A stretch of 50,907 bases of DNA from a candidate division WS1 bacterium (GTDB taxonomy: Bacteria; Armatimonadota; Zipacnadia; Zipacnadales; UBA5352), in the NCBI GenBank assembly GCA_003566775.1, contig PXBW01000318.1:1-50907 (forward strand), given 5' to 3'. Made by a program: the position numbers and the translations under genes. Shown here in pieces: positions 14,641 to 50,907 of this stretch; position 1 is the stretch's first letter; every line of letters starts with the position of its first letter. The notes beneath the pieces were generated by a model. The model was not told the DNA's origin and did no database searches. It was given only the letters and a program-made list of their open reading frames with translations.

Positions 14641-14656
14641 AGTGGGCGCGTCATTG

Positions 14657-14838
14657 CGAGCAGGCTCGTCTCCTGGCTTCCGGGTCAATCTCCAGCCGCG
14701 CCTTCCAGAGGGCTCTGTCGAACTCTCCGTGGCATGTGCGGCCTTCGTCGCCGGTCACAGTTGCGGGGCAGCGCCGGATTCCCACCGGTCTTCCGTGAGG
14801 CTCATCCGTCAGCCTCAGGTGTGCCCGCTCACGTAAGT
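14657..14838 (-). ncRNA. Cobalamin riboswitch (class I-like aptamer)
   Basis: Read on the minus strand, the segment contains the B12-box core 'CGCTGCCCCGCAACTGT', preceded by GGAAGACCGGTGGGAATCCGG. The 3' conserved parts are GCCACGGA, CTGGAAGGCG and CCGGAAGCCAGGAGACGAGCC. These match the cobalamin aptamer of RF00174 in order and spacing. The RNA points left, toward the pseudopilin gene at 14467, and away from the glycerol-1-phosphate dehydrogenase gene on the other strand. An attenuator follows directly. Identification is firm; boundaries are approximate. Confidence 0.95.
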
Positions 14839-15051
14839 TGTATCGCTGCTGGACGTCAGCCTATCAGGATGAGCACGGGGAGTCAAGCCACCCTCGGGCA
14901 GAGGCCGCCTCGTCCTATCTCGGCATTGGACAAGGGCATTCCACCAGACATGGGACTGCCCGCGCAGAGGAATACGACGCCGCAGCAGGAAATGGAGACC
15001 AGTGAGCGTTGTCCCGGACGGTCAAAGGCTGCAGGAGGAGTTGCGCAACTG

Positions 15052-26609: not shown

Positions 26610-27071
26610 TCAGTTCACATTCGACCTACCTCCACCGCCTCCCTGTCCCCCTTCACGCATGCCACGGAACCTCCCCTCGGGATACACGATGTGTTCTCTG
26701 AGATCGGATTGCAGCCTGCGCATTCTGCCGATGAGACCCCTTATCTCGTCGATATCCGCCGAGATGTCCCCACCAGCTTCCCAGTCAGACTGAAGTACCG
26801 AGAACTCCCAGATCGCTACGTGAAGCTGCTCCTGCAGTTCACCCATCTCCCGCCAGAGCTCCTCCGAGGTCTCATTGACCTTGAGATATGCTCCCGGTGG
26901 AAGGAGCATTTGACCATAACGCAGTTCGCGTGAGCCCCCGGAGCAGTCATCGTCACAATCGGTGCAGTGGCTATCTGCAGCCGCGGGCATGGTGATCGGA
27001 GTCCATGCCAGCATCACTATCCCCGCCGCCAGCATCGCTACCACAATTCGAGTCAAACCCTGCTTCATCAT
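26610..27071 (-). CDS. Secreted coiled-coil protein with Cys/His cluster, paralog of the next gene
   Basis: A 153-residue exported protein; ATG 27071 follows GGAGGTGATT (a second ATG comes next). The signal peptide is 'TRIVVAMLAAGIVMLAWTP', with cleavage probably near 'AAADSH'. Directly after it stands 'HCTDCDDDC', a His plus three Cys that could bind metal or form disulfides. Then follows 'LLPPGAYLKVNETSEELW', a helical heptad-rich stretch, and the tail 'LREHIVYPEGRFRGMREG' ending in glycines. The 'PPGAY...SEELW' block and the 'HIV.PEG' block recur in the upstream gene product, so the two arose by duplication. Size and helical hairpin shape recall periplasmic ZraP/Spy/CnrX-like sensors, but I see no direct family match. 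It is the last gene of the ECF sigma operon. Confidence 0.7.
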   Translation of the reverse strand: MMKQGLTRIVVAMLAAGIVMLAWTPITMPAAADSHCTDCDDDCSGGSRELRYGQMLLPPGAYLKVNETSEELWREMGELQEQLHVAIWEFSVLQSDWEAGGDISADIDEIRGLIGRMRRLQSDLREHIVYPEGRFRGMREGGQGGGGGRSNVN

Positions 27072-27251
27072 AATCACCTCCGTGTTCGTTACCGGTCACT
27101 TCATAGGACGGGTGAAGAAATCCGTTGATTCCCACTGTTCCGCAAGTGATCGGACCCCCGCGGAGGCACTCTGACTTGTGTGCGCGTACAAAGAAGAGCG
27201 ACGAGATGCTTCCTCGTCGCCTGAGTGCTCCAGCCATATCTTTCCAGCAGC

Positions 27252-27704
27252 CTACTCTTCCGCGTCACCTCGGGGTCCGCCCTCGCGCCGCTGGCGGATC
27301 TCGCGCAACATGCCCTCGGGCATCACGATGTGGTCCTGCAGTCTCTGGCGCGCCTCCCGCATCTGCATGTTCAACTCCCTGATCTCCCGCATCTTCTCCC
27401 GGACCTGGTCCTGGTCGGCGTCCCCTGAACGAAGCTCGGACAGTTCCCACGTCATCTGGTGAATCCCGATCTGAAGCTCGCCGATCTGATCCCATATCTC
27501 CTTCGAGGCCTCAGACGTCCTGATGTACGCCCCGGGTGGAAGTCCACCTGTCATGCCTCCGCGATCGACTCGTTGGCCGCGCTCTGCACGTTCACCCCAG
27601 TCACCACGCTGTCTCGGTGCTCGCTGCTCGGCCTGGCTCCAGGCCAGCGCCATCAGGCCGACGACCAGCAGAGCAACAATGAACCACGTCCATATCTGCT
27701 TCAT
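27252..27704 (-). CDS. Secreted coiled-coil protein, paralog of the downstream gene
   Basis: A 150-residue exported protein with signal peptide 'IWTWFIVALLVVGLMALAWS'; ATG 27704 follows CGGAGGTGACACGAAG. The mature chain has an Arg/Gly-rich N-terminal segment and then 'LPPGAYIRTSEASKEIWDQ'. A charged helical region with heptad spacing ('VREKMREIRELNMQMREARQ') and the tail 'LQDHIVMPEGMLREIRQRR' follow. It lacks the Cys cluster of its paralog. It lies 75 bases downstream of the RseB-like gene and is probably co-transcribed with it. Its likely place is the envelope, perhaps as sensor or chaperone for the sigma/anti-sigma pair; this is inference from operon position. Confidence 0.72.
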   Translation of the reverse strand: MKQIWTWFIVALLVVGLMALAWSQAEQRAPRQRGDWGERAERGQRVDRGGMTGGLPPGAYIRTSEASKEIWDQIGELQIGIHQMTWELSELRSGDADQDQVREKMREIRELNMQMREARQRLQDHIVMPEGMLREIRQRREGGPRGDAEE

Positions 27705-27779
27705 CTTCGTGTCACCTCCGGGATGCCCTGTTGACTATACTGGTGACGTTGAAGGTAGAGACCTGGTTCAAGTCTTATG

Positions 27780-28937
27780 TCACGAAGGACCCTGCATTCC
27801 GTCGAGGATACGCTCTCGCTGCTGTTCGCTGATCGGGCCGATCACTATGACCATCGTTCCATCGATTCGGCGCCTGCTCGCATCACCACCGACTCCGCGC
27901 ATGTGCCGAGGCCCCATCTCGCTCACTTCCTGGCGGTCATACGTGACACGCGGAGGTGAGGGCTCACGCCCTTCAGGCCCGGGAGGATCCCCTCTACCCG
28001 GTCTCTCTTCGTGCTCAAGGCGACGTTGCTCTCGCTCCTGTCGAAGCTCTTCTCGCGGGCCCTCGCGCTCGGTACTGTCCCGGTCCGGATCGCGAGGTAC
28101 GTAGCCACGCTGGATGACAGTCAGTGGACGAAGCCCGTCGCTGTAGCGCGCCTCCACCATCGACCCCATTGGATGCTGGGGACGTTCCACGAGATACCAG
28201 CGATCGAGTTTCCAGCCTGCGGGGATCCACGTCGGCTCCAGCACGGAAAAATCGACCGACGCGCGCACTTCCTCCACGCTCACGTGACGGCGACGACGAT
28301 CCTCGCGCCTTTCGGGTGGATCGACAATCGGCGGCGGTTCGACGTCGAAATCGACCTCCGTCCATGTTGTCTCGCTGATCAACTCGTCGTCAGGTCCCTT
28401 CCGGCTCATGTGGAGTGGAAAGTGCGTCGTGGTGTCCAACGCCATCGTAAGCGAGCCGCCCGGACCTGTACCGCGGACGACTGTAGTGCTCCGCCCGCCT
28501 ACCTGGCGTGTCCCCACTACGGTGAAGCTCCAGTTACGCCGGAGCAGATCGGCCTCCAGGGCTGCTTCGCCTACATCCGCCTGCCTGCGCCTCCGCCGAT
28601 CCCGCTCCTCATCGTTCTCTCGTCCTTCTACCCAGACTATTCCGCGCTGACGATGTACCTTTGTACCCTGTGCAGGCCCGCTCAGATAGTGGATCACGAA
28701 GCGCCCCTCGCCCCGATGCATCTCGGCACTAAGCTGCCGTTCACCTTCAGGGACCCGTACCGTAGTAATCACCGTGCCCTTGACCGAGGTCTGCTGCAGC
28801 GCTCGTGCCGCCTGCCGCACCAGTTCGTCTGCATCATTCGAGACCTCTTCGAGACAGCCGGTTGTCCCGAGTGCGAGCATAGCTACCGCCGCAGCAATCG
28901 CCGTCACACCCGCGGTCTTCCACGGAATCCGCCTCAC
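27780..28937 (-). CDS. RseB/MucB-like lipoprotein of the ECF operon
   Basis: A 385-residue predicted lipoprotein: signal 'TAIAAAVAMLALGTTGC' ends in a lipobox. Residues ~35-210 resemble the LolA/RseB-type N-terminal domain, with 'VKGTVITTVRVPEG' and 'TMALDTTTHFPLHMSRKGPD' matching the usual start and 'D..T.LPL' element. Residues ~235-300 ('LEPTWIPAGWKLDRWYLVE') match the C-terminal domain of RseB-like or DUF4367 proteins. A very charged Arg/Glu/Pro insert (~300-345) interrupts it. RseB binds the periplasmic part of its anti-sigma factor and senses misplaced lipids; a like role is inferred. Its ATG overlaps the anti-sigma stop by 4 bases (ATGA), so translation is coupled. Confidence 0.78.
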   Translation of the reverse strand: MRRIPWKTAGVTAIAAAVAMLALGTTGCLEEVSNDADELVRQAARALQQTSVKGTVITTVRVPEGERQLSAEMHRGEGRFVIHYLSGPAQGTKVHRQRGIVWVEGRENDEERDRRRRRQADVGEAALEADLLRRNWSFTVVGTRQVGGRSTTVVRGTGPGGSLTMALDTTTHFPLHMSRKGPDDELISETTWTEVDFDVEPPPIVDPPERREDRRRRHVSVEEVRASVDFSVLEPTWIPAGWKLDRWYLVERPQHPMGSMVEARYSDGLRPLTVIQRGYVPRDPDRDSTEREGPREELRQEREQRRLEHEERPGRGDPPGPEGREPSPPRVTYDRQEVSEMGPRHMRGVGGDASRRRIDGTMVIVIGPISEQQRERILDGMQGPS

Positions 28938-29404
28938 TGCACATCACCTGTATCATAGAGTCCGGCGTAGATCGCTCCAAGCGCCGCGTCGTCGGCCAGT
29001 GGCTGGGACCACTGCGCGACCACATGCTGCTCCTGATAGTCGGAGGCAAGCAGATTGTAATCTTCGGGGTCACCCGGTCTGCCGCGCAGGCCGAGCCACA
29101 GACCGGCTACCACCAATAGCATTGCTGCCGCGACGGCGATGGCCTGTCGCGCCGGCTGCCGCCAGAGCTGCCACAGCGGTGCGCGCCGCGGCTCCATGCG
29201 CCGCTTCACCCCCGACCAAAGATTCGCCGGCGCCTCAGCCTCCTCCATCGGCTCCAGCAATCCATCGAGCTTCTGCAGCGCCACAAGCTCGGCACGGCAG
29301 TCCGCGCACTCGGCGAGGTGCGCCTCGACGCCGGCGCGCTCTCGATCTTCCAGCAGATCGAGTTGATACTCCGTCAGTCTGTCACACACCTGTCTGCAGC
29401 GCAT
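28934..29404 (-). CDS. Zinc-finger (zf-HC2) anti-sigma factor
   Basis: A 156-residue membrane anti-sigma factor. ATG 29404, after GGGGAGGAGTGACG, is preferred to 29425 and overlaps the sigma gene by 23 bases. The N-terminal cytoplasmic domain has 'VEAHLAECADCRAEL', the His-x3-Cys-x2-Cys of zf-HC2/ASD domains, with 'CRQVCDRLTEYQLDLL' upstream. One transmembrane helix, 'AIAVAAAMLLVVAGLWLGL', separates it from a ~50-residue outer part, long enough for contact with the RseB-like protein. It would hold the cognate ECF sigma factor inactive until a signal triggers release. Confidence 0.92.
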   Translation of the reverse strand: MRCRQVCDRLTEYQLDLLEDRERAGVEAHLAECADCRAELVALQKLDGLLEPMEEAEAPANLWSGVKRRMEPRRAPLWQLWRQPARQAIAVAAAMLLVVAGLWLGLRGRPGDPEDYNLLASDYQEQHVVAQWSQPLADDAALGAIYAGLYDTGDVQ

Positions 29405-29963
29405 CGTCACTCCTCCCCGCATCATCGATGTAAGGTGCCAGGCGACGCCTCAGGCTCTTCCTGCCCCGCGATAATCTCGAGACAACAGTTCCCTTCGGCA
29501 GATCGAGGGCTTCCATGATCTCCGTCACCGATCTTCCCTCCAGGTAATGCATCCGCACAACCTCGCGTTGATGATCGGGAAGGTCCAATATCGCCTCGCG
29601 CACCGAATGATCTGCGTCCGCCTGCTCGACCATCTGCGCCGGCCCATCCTCGCCGCTGGGCATCGGGTTGCTCTCATCCAGCGGGCGCTCGTCACGATTA
29701 CTTCGAAAGTGATCCCGTACAAGGTTCATGGCTGTCGTTTTCAGCCATCCCTCGAATGCCCCGGGGTCGCGCAGCTTCGGGAGCCGCTGCCACGCCCTGA
29801 CAAAGGCATCCTGCGTCACGTCCGCGGCGACCTCCGGGTCGCGACAGAAATGCATCGCGAGTCCATAAACACCGTTCTGGTAAGCCCGGAAGAGGGCCTC
29901 GAACGCGCGCTCATCGCCCGCCTGTGCGGCTTCAACTGTCTGTATGAGCGCAGATCGTTCCAC
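29382..29963 (-). CDS. ECF-type RNA polymerase sigma factor
   Basis: A 193-residue sigma-70 family factor of the extracytoplasmic-function group. Region 2 shows 'ALFRAYQNGVYGLAMHFC', 'AADVTQDAFVRAWQRLP' and 'FEGWLKTTAMNLVRDHFR'. Region 4 shows 'LDLPDHQREVVRMHYLEGRS' and the helix-turn-helix 'TEIMEALDLPKGTVVSRLSR'. The start is GTG 29963 after GAGGGTG. It is the first gene of a five-gene operon with its anti-sigma, an RseB-like lipoprotein and two secreted coiled-coil proteins. Target promoters are unknown; a possible GGAATCA-17-TCTGT element lies just upstream. Confidence 0.95.
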   Translation of the reverse strand: MERSALIQTVEAAQAGDERAFEALFRAYQNGVYGLAMHFCRDPEVAADVTQDAFVRAWQRLPKLRDPGAFEGWLKTTAMNLVRDHFRSNRDERPLDESNPMPSGEDGPAQMVEQADADHSVREAILDLPDHQREVVRMHYLEGRSVTEIMEALDLPKGTVVSRLSRGRKSLRRRLAPYIDDAGRSDDALQTGV

Positions 29964-29978
29964 GGATCACCCTCATCG

Positions 29979-30009
29979 ATACAGACGCACCCGGGCGCCG
30001 ACTGATTCC
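29979..30009 (-). promoter_or_regulatory. Candidate ECF-type promoter upstream of the sigma operon
   Basis: On the minus strand GGAATCA (30009-30003) and TCTGTAT (29985-29979) are separated by 17 bases, resembling RpoE-type GGAACTT/TCTGA promoters and suggesting autoregulation. The predicted start would leave only about ten bases before the GTG, just enough for the ribosome site, so this is tentative. Confidence 0.25.
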
Positions 30010-30086: not shown

Positions 30087-31127
30087 TCACATGGCGTACT
30101 CACGCCGACGGTGTAACAGGTAAAGGAAGAAAGGAGCGCCAAGCAGGGATGTGATAATGCCTACGGGGATCTCAGTCGGAGCAGCGAGAGTGCGCGCGAC
30201 AACGTCCGCGAGCACCAACAGTGTCCCTCCGGCAATCGCAGAGGCGGGCAACAGCGCGCGGTGGTCCGGTCCGATCATTATACGCATCAGGTGAGGTACG
30301 ACAAGACCTATGAAGCCGATGAGACCGCTCACCGCAACTGCCGCGGCGGTGAGCAGCGATGACAGTGCGAGCAGGGTCAAGCGTACCTGCTCCACATTCA
30401 TCCCCAGGTAGTGAGCCGTCTCATCACCAAGTGTCAGAAGATTCAGGTCGCGCCCGAACAGGTAGGTTAGCCCCCCTGCGATACCGACATAGGGCGCGAT
30501 CAGGCCCACATGCGTCCAACTGCGGCCTGCGACGCTGCCGAGCATCCAGTACACAACCTGGTCGAGATCACGACGGGCAGGGTCCTGCCCCGTTACCAGC
30601 ACCAGAGCGGCAAGCGCCGACATGAGAGCCCCCATCGCGATCCCGGTCAGCAGCAGCACGCCCACCGGTGTGCGTCCACCGCGCCTTGACAGCACATAGA
30701 CCAACGCAGTCGCAAGCAAAGCGCCGAGGAACGCTGCCAGCGGAACGGCTCCGAGGCCTGCCACGCCGATAGAAACCCCGGCAACGATCGCGAGAGTCGC
30801 CCCCAGTGATGCTCCTGCTGAGATGCCGATGATCGAGGGCGCCGCCATCGGATTCTGGAAGAACGCCTGCATGACCACCCCGGCGACAGCAAGCGATGAT
30901 CCCACCAGCAGTGCCAGCATCAGCCTCGGCAGACGCAGTTCGAAGACAATGATCTCATGCGCTGAGGACAACTGAGGATCGAGTGCTTCCATCCCGGGCA
31001 GCCTGCTCAACAGGGCAAGTGCCACGGCACTCGGTTCCACGTAAGCCGCGCCGAATGACATCGACAGAGCCGCTGAGGCGAGCAGGGCGAGTACCAGCGC
31101 AGCCCAGAGCAGTCCTCGTCTGGTCAT
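30087..31127 (-). CDS. btuC: Corrinoid ABC transporter permease
   Basis: A 346-residue FecCD/BtuC-type permease with about ten membrane helices. Family motifs include 'LRLPRLMLALLVGSSLAVAG', 'QAFFQNPMAAPSIIGISAGA' and, near the C-terminus, 'GLIGFIGLVVPHLMRIMIGP', the region that holds the coupling helices for the ATPase. The FecCD family also serves siderophores and heme; I call it BtuC because the operon is headed by a cobalamin riboswitch. Its ATG overlaps the btuD stop by 4 bases, so the two are translationally coupled. It is the last gene of btuFDC, with no clear terminator seen after it. Confidence 0.92.
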   Translation of the reverse strand: MTRRGLLWAALVLALLASAALSMSFGAAYVEPSAVALALLSRLPGMEALDPQLSSAHEIIVFELRLPRLMLALLVGSSLAVAGVVMQAFFQNPMAAPSIIGISAGASLGATLAIVAGVSIGVAGLGAVPLAAFLGALLATALVYVLSRRGGRTPVGVLLLTGIAMGALMSALAALVLVTGQDPARRDLDQVVYWMLGSVAGRSWTHVGLIAPYVGIAGGLTYLFGRDLNLLTLGDETAHYLGMNVEQVRLTLLALSSLLTAAAVAVSGLIGFIGLVVPHLMRIMIGPDHRALLPASAIAGGTLLVLADVVARTLAAPTEIPVGIITSLLGAPFFLYLLHRRREYAM

Positions 31128-31927
31128 GATCCTTGCTCACCCGCCGCCGATCCGACAGCCGTCACGCGCGGGCGGCCTCCGGGGCCCGTGTCCACCTGCA
31201 CAGTGCACCGGTAGAGCGCCCCCATCCGCTCAGCAGTGAGCACTTCGCCGGGCGAGCCTTCCGCGACCACCCTTCCCTCCTCCATCGCGATCAGGCGATC
31301 GCAGTATCGTGATGCGAGGTTGAGATCATGTGACACACACAGAATGCTCCGCCCCTCATCGCGGTTGAGTCGCCGCAGAAGCTCGAAGATCTCCACCTGG
31401 TGACCGATGTCGAGATGCGCCACCGGCTCATCCAACAGCATCAGCCGTGCCTCCTGCGCCAGGGCCCTCGCGATGACGGTGCGCTGAAACTCACCGCCCG
31501 AAAGCTCCGTCACAGGTCGACCGGCGAGACGCCTGGTGTGAGTAAGCGCCAGCGCGCGGTCTACCGCGGTGCGATCGTCCGCACCCTCCGACTGGAGTCT
31601 TCCGAGATGCGGGGAACGCCCCATCGCGACGATCTCCTCCACGGTGAACTCGAAGGGCGGCACAGACATCTGCGGCACCACGGCGAGCCTGCGCGCCACC
31701 TCACGACGCGCCTGCTGTCGCATCGGCACACCATCCAGCATGATTTCTCCCGCTGACGGCCGCAACTGCCCCGTAAGCGCGCGCAGAAGAGTCGTCTTCC
31801 CTGACCCGTTCGGCCCGATGAGCCCGAGGAACTCGCCGCGGCGAAGCTCCATTCCAACGTCATCGAGCACCTCACGCTCCTCGTAGCCACAGGTCACATT
31901 AACGGCGGCGAGCACTCCATCACCCAT
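31124..31927 (-). CDS. btuD: Corrinoid ABC transporter ATPase
   Basis: A 267-residue ABC ATPase that powers the BtuC permease from the cytoplasmic side. Walker A 'GPNGSGKTT', Q-loop 'VPQMSVPPFEF', signature 'LSGGEFQRT', Walker B 'LMLLDEP' and switch 'VSHDL' are all intact. I start it at ATG 31927 ('MGDGVLAAVNVTCGYE'), eight bases inside the end of btuF; the longer ORF to 32104 is only read-through of btuF in another frame. The assignment to corrinoid and not iron chelate rests on the riboswitch upstream. Confidence 0.93.
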   Translation of the reverse strand: MGDGVLAAVNVTCGYEEREVLDDVGMELRRGEFLGLIGPNGSGKTTLLRALTGQLRPSAGEIMLDGVPMRQQARREVARRLAVVPQMSVPPFEFTVEEIVAMGRSPHLGRLQSEGADDRTAVDRALALTHTRRLAGRPVTELSGGEFQRTVIARALAQEARLMLLDEPVAHLDIGHQVEIFELLRRLNRDEGRSILCVSHDLNLASRYCDRLIAMEEGRVVAEGSPGEVLTAERMGALYRCTVQVDTGPGGRPRVTAVGSAAGEQGS

Positions 31928-32915
31928 CAAGCTCGCCCCCGCTGAGGGCGTCGGAGATGATCTCCTCCATCTGCTCAATCGCATCGAAGAGTCGAGGCCC
32001 CGCCCGCACCGCAAGGTCCGGGTTGATCGAGTAAACTCGGCCTTCACGGACTGCTGCAAGCTCGCGCCACCCCGGTCGCTCCGCGAGCATGGCCGAGCCC
32101 TCAACCATCTCGCCCGAATCGTCTTCTATTGCAGTAATCACGATGTCCGGATCGAGAGAGATCACAGCCTCCAGCGAAAGACTGGGCCATTGACCGGAGT
32201 TTTTGCCCTGCACGAGCATTGCGGCATTCACCGCGCCGACAGTATCTATCATGTCATCAACGAAGTGTTCTTCACCGGCCACGAATACCGGATCGAGATC
32301 GATGACAAAGAGCAGACTCGGCCTGCCCTCCCTGATGGTGCGCTCGAAGATTCTGTCGCTGACTTCTTCCACTCTGTGAGCGAGTCGCTCGGAGAGCCTA
32401 TTGGCGTCGGACTCCACGCCCAGCACTCTGCCGATCTCGCGGAAGAGGGAGAGCACCTCGGAGATGGAAATCGGGTCGTAGGCCAGCACCGGTATTCCCA
32501 CCCGCTCGATGGCGTCTATCACGTCCGTTGGCGTACCGCGCTCGGTCAGCACGAGTTCCGGCTCAAGGTTCACGATCGCCTCGAGGCTCGGATCGACCAG
32601 CCCGCCAACTGAGGGAACATCTCGAACCTCGGGAGGATAGTCGCTGAAGTGTATGCGTCCGACCACGCGCTCGCCCGCGCCCATCGCGAAGATCGCCTCT
32701 GTGATGCCCGTTGAGAGGCTGATGATCCGCTCTGGAGGGCGATCCAGCGTCACTTCGTTGCTCAAGGCATCGGTGAAGACGCGCGGCCAGGCGGGCTCAA
32801 GCGTCGGATCCTCAACCGGTTCTTCAGTTGGTGGGGGTTCCACGGGTCGAGGGCATCCGGCGACCAGTAGAACCGGCATAAGAAGCGACAGGACGAAGAG
32901 ATATCTCGGCTTCAT
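31920..32915 (-). CDS. btuF: Corrinoid ABC transporter substrate-binding lipoprotein
   Basis: A 331-residue class III (helical-backbone) substrate-binding protein. The start is ATG 32915, which opens a lipoprotein signal 'LFVLSLLMPVLLVAGC'; the ORF to 33251 would run into the riboswitch. After a Pro/Glu-rich linker come 'RIISLSTGITEAIFAMGAG' and 'VVGRIHFSDYPPEVRDVPSVGG', matching BtuF/FepB-type lobes, and 'LEPELVLTERGTP'. It would capture cobalamin or other corrinoids outside the cytoplasmic membrane and hand them to BtuCD. It is first in the btuFDC operon, which is controlled by a cobalamin riboswitch. Confidence 0.92.
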   Translation of the reverse strand: MKPRYLFVLSLLMPVLLVAGCPRPVEPPPTEEPVEDPTLEPAWPRVFTDALSNEVTLDRPPERIISLSTGITEAIFAMGAGERVVGRIHFSDYPPEVRDVPSVGGLVDPSLEAIVNLEPELVLTERGTPTDVIDAIERVGIPVLAYDPISISEVLSLFREIGRVLGVESDANRLSERLAHRVEEVSDRIFERTIREGRPSLLFVIDLDPVFVAGEEHFVDDMIDTVGAVNAAMLVQGKNSGQWPSLSLEAVISLDPDIVITAIEDDSGEMVEGSAMLAERPGWRELAAVREGRVYSINPDLAVRAGPRLFDAIEQMEEIISDALSGGELDG

Positions 32916-32992
32916 AGGCGGCGCAACTCCTGTGATCCGAAAGGGAGAGTTGGATGCCGTCACAGTCCGGTCGCGCCACCAGAACATCAGCA

Positions 32993-33015
32993 GCCCCGCA
33001 TCGAGGCTGCGGGGC
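32993..33015 (-). terminator. Hairpin at the 3' end of the btu riboswitch
   Basis: Perfect 8-bp stem GCCCCGCA (32993-33000) / TGCGGGGC (33008-33015), 7-base loop, between the aptamer and btuF. The minus strand continues GCTGATGTTCTGG, a poor T-run, so it may act as an attenuator hairpin or in another way. Confidence 0.5.
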
Positions 33016-33172
33016 CTTACGGTATCTGCACGGTCACCGTCCGCCCTCGCGGGATGATCCGTGGCGCGTATCTCGGTGTCTGACTGACGGTCGCGGCGCG
33101 ACCGAACACAGTTGCGGGGCAGTGACGGACTCGCACCGTCTTCCCGAGCGACCTCCAACGGCCGCCTGCGAC
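33003..33172 (-). ncRNA. Cobalamin riboswitch of the btuFDC operon
   Basis: The minus strand carries GGAAGACGGTGCGAGTCCG followed by TCACTGCCCCGCAACTGTG, the B12-box core of cobalamin aptamers, with GGTGCGTGTCGCAGGC as its upstream part. The peripheral 3' region (GCCACGG...CGAGGGCGG...) does not show the 'GAAGCCAGGAGAC' element seen in the other riboswitch of this window, so this is a shorter or more divergent aptamer. It lies just upstream of btuF in the correct direction, and cobalamin should repress the operon. Confidence 0.92.
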
Positions 33173-33190
33173 ACGCACCTCGTTCACTGA

Positions 33191-33207
33191 CCGGAGCATT
33201 GCTCCGG
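33191..33207. promoter_or_regulatory. Small palindrome upstream of the btu leader
   Basis: CCGGAGC-ATT-GCTCCGG, a 7-bp perfect stem, in the space between the btu riboswitch and the divergent sulfatase gene. It could be an extra aptamer helix or an operator; nothing in sequence decides. Confidence 0.25.
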
Positions 33208-33365
33208 CCCTCATCTAACAGTACGATAGCACAAACGGTAGATATCGGCAAGCAAGATCGGCCCGGGGAAGGGATCGTATTCGCGCCGATGAAGGATGCA
33301 TCCGTGCCCCGGACACCTGCGCGCCTTAGTATATGCAGTCAACTCGGAGACTTCGGAGGTACCCA

Positions 33366-50654: not shown

Positions 50655-50907
50655 AGTCGGTTGTGCACCCACCGTTGACAACGCAGCCCAGCCGTTACCC
50701 TCGCAGCCAGCTCCGGCCAGGTGATCTGCGGCACAGAAGACCTTCTGCCTACCGCTGCTCCCTTCCGGGCCTGACGGGGTTCAGCAGACGTCTCCTTGCG
50801 CAGGACCCAACCTTCATCACCGCTTACGTGGGTCAGACGCCAAACTGCGAAGCCGCGGGCGGGAATTCAGCCCCACTATGGCGGATTGTGGGTGCAGGGT
50901 ACCGCCA
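50655..50907 (-). ncRNA. ffs: Signal recognition particle RNA, large (Bacillus-type, with Alu domain), 5' partial
   Basis: Read on the minus strand, the S-domain apical hairpin 'GTCAGGCCCGGAAGGGAGCAGC' core is present around 50755-50775, flanked by GGGTCCTGCGCA and TGTGCCGCAG, the paired halves of helix 5/8. Further 5', TACCCTGCACCCACAATCCGCC matches the Alu-domain strand of the Bacillus scRNA, and near 50661 GGTGGGTGCAC matches its 3' end. So this is the long form, with its 5' end beyond the window. It binds Ffh and guides nascent membrane proteins. It lies upstream of dnaX on the same strand, as in Bacillus. Confidence 0.93.

Follow-up and report, generated by a model that had tools for sequence, protein, structure and literature searches.

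A sigma-E/RseA/RseB-like module with predicted ZraP/Spy-like exported targets in a candidate division WS1 bacterium of the Armatimonadota

We analysed a stretch of 50,907 nucleotides (hereafter the window) from a candidate division WS1 bacterium of the phylum Armatimonadota (assembly GCA_003566775.1, contig PXBW01000318.1). It carries genes for an extracytoplasmic function (ECF) sigma factor, a zinc-type anti-sigma factor, an RseB-like protein and two small exported proteins, p2 and p1. An earlier note, made from the sequence alone, had placed five leftward genes here, and all five open reading frames are present on the minus strand between 26610 and 29963. The end given there for the system, position 30009, coincides with the base at which the sigma promoter begins. 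The features of the locus are as follows.

29984..30009, minus strand: sigma promoter GGAATC-N16-CGTC, 46 bases 5' of the sigma start codon, a motif shared with sigma orthologues.
29382..29963, minus strand: ECF sigma factor, 193 residues, GTG start (Sigma70_r2 E=5.7e-19, Sigma70_r4_2 E=2.3e-12).
28934..29425, minus strand: zf-HC2 anti-sigma factor with one membrane helix and a short outer tail (zf-HC2 E=2.1e-7).
27780..28937, minus strand: RseB/MucB homologue, 385 residues, with a weak lipobox TTGC and both RseB domains, from profile matches and predicted fold.
27745..27770, minus strand: p2 promoter-like site TGAACC-N16-CGTC, from a degenerate-pattern search; the variant recurs in relatives.
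27252..27704, minus strand: p2, small exported protein of 150 residues with a signal peptide, a Gly/Arg-rich linker and a helical hairpin (65-93 / 98-123), from AlphaFold2; linked to the ZraP superfamily.
27197..27221, minus strand: terminator-like hairpin between p2 and p1, a 9-pair stem followed by CTTCTTT, weak by itself.
27107..27132, minus strand: p1 promoter-like site GGAATC-N16-CGTC, from a motif search.
26610..27077, minus strand: p1, small exported protein of ~153 residues, a p2 paralogue (37% identity).

The sigma and anti-sigma genes overlap by at most 44 bases, and the likelier start of the anti-sigma gene is an ATG seven codons in, 3' of GGAGGAG. The anti-sigma and RseB genes overlap at GTGA, not at the ATGA that had been reported, and the RseB gene begins with GTG. 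For p1, the ribosome-binding site makes the ATG at 27071 or 27068 the most likely start, rather than the GTG at 27077. The order of sigma factor, anti-sigma factor, RseB and small protein is no chance arrangement, since it recurs in relatives. The locus is thus a five-gene system, as had been proposed, but it is doubtful that all five genes form one operon: p2 and p1 are each preceded by a promoter-like site and are separated by a terminator-like hairpin. Transcription of each probably starts at its own promoter, whether or not read-through from the first three genes (the triad) adds to it.

The proposal that the sigma factor, the anti-sigma factor and RseB form an RpoE-type module was borne out by domain, profile and fold matches. 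The sigma protein carries ECF regions 2 and 4 (Pfam Sigma70_r2 and Sigma70_r4_2) and is 42-67% identical to those encoded at the same loci in relatives. The anti-sigma factor has the zinc-finger pattern H-x3-C-x2-C, with C/H/C/C ligands that are invariant in the alignment of its orthologues (A3), and a single hydrophobic segment, AIAVAAAMLLVVAGLWLGL. Its outer tail is short (~55 residues) and strongly conserved, YQEQxxVAQWSQPLADDAAL (YQEQ..VAQWSQPLADDAAL), with W, P and AD invariant in the same alignment, and would be a natural region for docking and cleavage. As a single sequence, the third gene product matches Pfam MucB_RseB weakly (E=0.057). Searched against the PDB, a profile of seven orthologues (A2) picks up MucB of Pseudomonas (6in8, E=2.3e-11) and RseB of E. 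coli (2p4b, E=7.5e-5), and these orthologues match both MucB_RseB domains, the N-terminal LolA-like one and the C-terminal one. The predicted fold has RseB 2v42 as its best match (E=4e-17), and its top 15 PDB matches are all RseB or MucB. Judged by these profiles and this model, the protein is a true two-domain RseB/MucB homologue, and with its weak lipobox it is probably lipid-anchored. The genome also encodes, at G000:C350 (G000 being the window's genome), an M50 protease with a HELGH motif and RseP-like length (E=8.3e-51).

The triad is widespread in the phylum. We surveyed 291 genomes, most of them fragmented metagenome-assembled genomes (MAGs), so that absences are soft, with gene starts in the relatives assigned mechanically. 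RseB-like matches were found in 190 of the 291. The survey of sigma/zf-HC2/RseB-like neighbourhoods that the earlier note had suggested gave the sigma and anti-sigma genes beside RseB in 46 of 47 RseB-like loci, window included, the exception lying at a contig end; this share is an upper estimate, the loci being mostly the best-scoring matches. Among named genomes, the RseB-like protein used singly as the query gave no match, and the RseB alignment gave six loci, in Candidatus Zipacnadia, candidate division WS1 and Armatimonadetes MAGs. Homologues of p1 and p2 (P genes) are rarer than RseB (33 of 291 genomes, chiefly of the same order), and a single one lies directly 3' of RseB in six order-level relatives. 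In more distant clades, the slot behind RseB is occupied by small exported proteins of other kinds, including LTPEQ-type ones, which likewise form hairpins and have Gly-rich tails; Pfam names none of them, and they are grouped by architecture only. In one genome (G008) it holds an EF-hand protein. We also observed, judging from sequence, an M48-like peptidase gene 3' of RseB or overlapping it in three loci from other families of the phylum (L099, L100, L102). Three Gly-rich exported proteins (L147 1567-1914, L083 8127-8639 and L023 6493-7215) have a GPRD[GC]TGRG motif towards the C terminus; one of them is under a GGAATC promoter and two lie behind RseB. The window's genome has a second sigma/anti-sigma/RseB-like triad (L114, G000:C323).

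The promoter motif was first found by eye in the upstream regions of the window and then tested on other sequence. Within the window, a degenerate form of the pattern occurs five times, against 0.86 expected. In the wider set, which includes the window's genes and a second pair of paralogues described below, the strict motif stands near the start of 25 of 44 sigma genes, 9 of 25 P genes (16 of 25 under a relaxed pattern) and 5 of 8 other fourth genes, and near none of 48 anti-sigma and 47 RseB genes, for shuffled expectations of at most 0.07. We rely on such positions instead of counts because a control with a spacer of 19 nearly equals the motif count: the apparent excess over the reversed pattern (14 vs 1) was rejected as evidence, since that genome has 13 matches to the control. 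Additional motif copies, found after the motif had been defined on the window, precede the second tandem pair.

L005 623-1060 and 1224-1682 (G000:C313): paralogues of p1 and p2 that form a second tandem pair on another contig, with the exact motif 68 bases 5' of each start.

No sigma gene was found near this pair. The hairpin between its genes (13 pairs, z=-3.48) is stronger than that between p2 and p1, which is no more than shuffling would give (1 found, shuffle mean 1.2). Since the shared promoter precedes them, the small genes are probably separate sigma targets, and p1 and p2 would be outputs of the sigma factor and not new receivers of its signal.

The same promoter suggests, in close relatives, a regulon of exported and possibly cation-binding proteins. 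Motif sites with a plausible gene 3' of them lead mostly to exported proteins, and the spacer-19 control had a candidate gene at 2 of 30 sites, none of them exported. Fourteen EF-hand genes were found in eight genomes of the family, and seven of these have the exact motif upstream. No metal transporter is among the predicted targets listed.

EF-hand genes with the exact motif: G000:C313, G001:C142, G002:C46, G003:C9, G003:C151, G008:C23 and G008:C45.
EF-hand genes with the TGAACC form, at least two more: G005:C186 and G008:C25.

The observation that the two small proteins are related to each other was confirmed (37% identity over 148 columns, E=7e-26). In the AlphaFold2 model of p2, the hairpin has a predicted local distance difference test score of ~92-97, and the P proteins have a conserved Trp71/Trp86. 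Two P homologues come near the Metal_resist cut-off (E=1.3e-5 and 2.5e-5, the best with 25.8 of 29.2 bits). Compared profile to profile, the alignment of P proteins (A1) matches that of the fourth-gene products and their relatives (A7) over the hairpin and Gly-rich flanks, with a probability of 99.1. A7, which was built without the two proteins matching Metal_resist, has ZraP (3lay, E=2.4e-5) as its best match among 177,635 PDB sequences. The P profile also reaches two proteins, L142 and L159, that are themselves Metal_resist/LTXXQ proteins. More direct comparisons gave less: A1 against PDB profiles found coiled coils and chance matches alone, a Metal_resist search of the window's own genome found no match, and LTxxQ motifs are absent from the P alignments, distant relatives (L142 and L159, for example) alone having them. 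We found no conserved set of metal ligands in the hairpin core of the P proteins, which has no Cys, His82 (in 71%) as the sole recurring His or Cys, and one Met at 57%. Overall, the profile matches tie the P proteins remotely to a superfamily of periplasmic metal-related proteins, in line with the metal-system link that had been hinted at, and p1 and p2 probably work like ZraP/Spy-type proteins and are probably their remote kin. Some P homologues have additional regions. Three of them (L037, L038, L039) have long Cys-rich tails, with at most 18% Cys, reminiscent of metal-binding regions, and three others (L025, L027, L028) share a C-terminal module, KLYLV..GQLYKFDADTLELLKV, with two stand-alone exported promoter targets (L201 118-426 and L212 106-426).

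In our view, the locus is likely to encode an Armatimonadota form of the envelope-stress switch sigma-E/RseA/RseB, with ZraP/Spy-like outputs. In E. coli and Pseudomonas, RseB binds the outer tail of the anti-sigma factor and blocks site-1 cleavage until a lipid or outer-membrane protein signal arrives (PMC8103513, PMC7400510). The genes, their homologies, the conserved promoter and its positions are what we observe in Armatimonadota; from them we infer promoter recognition by the sigma factor, binding of RseB to the anti-sigma factor, proteolytic release, the signal, and a chaperone or cation-binding role for the outputs. The anti-sigma factor would retain the sigma factor at the membrane, and the RseB-like protein would sit outside on the conserved tail, shielding it against site-1 cleavage. 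An envelope signal would remove the RseB-like protein, allowing site-1 cleavage, after which the RseP-type protease would free the sigma factor. This factor would then activate its own triad via GGAATC-N16-CGTC and, via separate promoters of the same kind, p1, p2 and the second pair, as well as exported EF-hand proteins in close relatives. The exported outputs may protect or buffer the envelope, as folding helpers or cation buffers.

Several results weigh against this reading. Three genomes of the same genus (G001-G003) have the triad without P genes. Exact N16 matches in ten genomes of the family number 116, vs 84 for the spacer-19 control; most single matches must be due to chance in these G+C-rich genomes, and position alone is therefore informative. 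The site of p2 is the TGAACC variant, which could be read by another sigma factor, and the second triad on contig C323 encodes one. The gene of that sigma factor has no good GGAATC motif copy upstream, which favours the window's sigma factor as the reader of GGAATC. The assignment of TGAACC, a form that also occurs 5' of the P homologues L025, L034 and L035, is less sure. Neither p1 nor p2 has a match over cut-off in Pfam or NCBIfam, where only noise such as PqqD and ACC_epsilon was found. The pair thus matches no nameable family at curated cut-offs, as had been stated, while profile comparison links it to ZraP and Metal_resist. Because the curated cut-off is not reached, we do not assign p1 and p2 to the ZraP/Spy/CpxP (Metal_resist) family. 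Finally, the Foldseek search with p2 gave no significant match (best E=0.17), with ZraP chains among the weak ones (E ~1.1), and was rejected as proof of kinship with ZraP.

A sub-version of the envelope-stress reading differs in the signal and in the role of the outputs. The sigma factor could answer metal or calcium imbalance specifically, the EF-hand and ZraP-like proteins being cation buffers and not folding helpers. EF-hand genes under the shared promoter in G000, G001, G002, G003 and G008 would fit this, as would the Cys-rich tails of L037-L039 and a Cys/Asp cluster, HCTDCDDDC, that follows the signal peptide of p1 and has a like in one of the C313 counterparts. There is also a precedent in Caulobacter, where the periplasmic EF-hand protein CaBP is tied to SigV (PMC13171946). 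However, p2 lacks both Cys and a His-rich tail, the predicted targets listed lack a metal transporter, and RseB homologues elsewhere answer lipid or outer-membrane protein signals, not cations (PMC8103513, PMC7400510). We regard this specific version as tentative and rather doubtful.

The likeness of p1 and p2 to ZraP could also be spurious, the two belonging to a lineage-specific, low-complexity family of exported helical proteins whose profile matches reflect a generic hairpin composition. Their scores below the Pfam and NCBIfam cut-offs are consistent with this, and so are the fold matches, which are generic hairpins that include designed proteins, and the designed coiled coils in the PDB profile lists. 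Yet a generic composition would explain less well the profile-profile match to homologues that have ZraP as best PDB match and share the hairpin and Gly-rich flanks, or the reach of the P profile to the Metal_resist proteins L142 and L159, and we think this explanation unlikely. The view of the earlier note, that the coiled-coil pair of a five-gene operon acts with RseB on the anti-sigma factor as new, CnrX-like periplasmic receivers, has in its favour the distant place of P proteins in the superfamily of ZraP and Metal_resist proteins, the six order-level loci with a P gene directly 3' of RseB, and the precedent of CnrX, which senses metal in the periplasm and acts on an anti-sigma factor (PMC4598750), but is improbable given that the small genes have sigma-type promoters of their own, that the C313 pair lies apart from any sigma gene found, that triads of the same genus do without P genes, and that the hairpin core has no ligand set beyond a recurring His82. 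Feedback on the switch by an output protein is still conceivable. On the boldest reading, an RseB-type switch distributed across the phylum would read divalent-cation or metal imbalance of the envelope, with interchangeable exported EF-hand or ZraP-like proteins as both output and gauge through feedback on RseB or the anti-sigma factor, a scheme to which we give very little credence.

Under the envelope-stress reading, the module is of a known kind (sigma-E/RseA/RseB) and varies from it in its phylum, its zinc-type anti-sigma factor, its likely lipid-anchored RseB and its predicted regulon of exported ZraP-like and EF-hand proteins. Like E. coli RpoE-RseA-RseB and Pseudomonas AlgU-MucA-MucB, it has an ECF sigma factor, a membrane anti-sigma factor and a two-domain RseB in one operon, with autoregulation (here predicted), a GGAA-type -35 element and an RseP-type protease in the genome. 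Unlike them, its anti-sigma factor is of the zf-HC2 type and not of the RseA type, with a short outer tail, its RseB probably has a lipid anchor, and exported proteins of the ZraP-like and EF-hand kinds are among its predicted targets. The -10 element is CGTC here, whereas that of E. coli sigma-E is TCAAA. CpxP, Spy and ZraP are targets of the Cpx, Bae and Zra envelope-stress regulators, and the P proteins resemble them as small exported helical hairpins with Gly-rich flanks that are predicted envelope-stress targets. They differ in lacking LTxxQ and a conserved core metal site, in having Trp71/Trp86 and in scoring below the Metal_resist cut-off. In the cobalt/nickel system CnrYXH of Cupriavidus, the sigma and membrane anti-sigma genes also lie beside a gene for a small protein of the periplasm that belongs, broadly, to the superfamily of the P proteins; CnrX senses the metal and acts on CnrY, which wraps the sigma factor (PMC4598750). 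Here, in contrast, the anti-sigma factor is of the zf-HC2 and not the CnrY type, the module includes an RseB homologue, and p1 and p2 look like targets. The Caulobacter CaBP-SigV system likewise ties a periplasmic EF-hand protein to an ECF sigma factor; the abstract describing it does not mention RseB, and in Armatimonadota the EF-hand genes are scattered and share the promoter of the sigma gene (PMC13171946). We found no publication on this system in Armatimonadota in the literature searched, which did not cover the main ECF classification, so that an earlier description of the sigma group is possible.

Other elements of the window are listed below. The cobalamin-transport genes upstream were considered as part of the system and rejected, having their own riboswitch, as the sigma gene has its own promoter.

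14646-14843, minus strand: cobalamin riboswitch (Rfam RF00174).
31920-33251, 31124-32104 and 30087-31127: BtuF/D/C-like genes, ending ~120 bases before the sigma gene.
33054-33189, minus strand: cobalamin riboswitch (Rfam RF00174), 5' of the BtuF/D/C-like genes.
50661-50907, minus strand: bacterial large signal recognition particle RNA, truncated where the contig ends.

Most of what is known about sigma switches under RseB control comes from Proteobacteria, in which lipopolysaccharide and outer-membrane proteins provide the signals (PMC8103513). A triad spread across the Armatimonadota, whose promoter is readable and whose predicted regulon is coherent, would open a second lineage to the question of what RseB senses. 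A possible function is also suggested for several unnamed families of Gly-rich exported proteins and for the EF-hand proteins of bacteria, and with the promoter in hand the predicted regulon is testable by a simple reporter.

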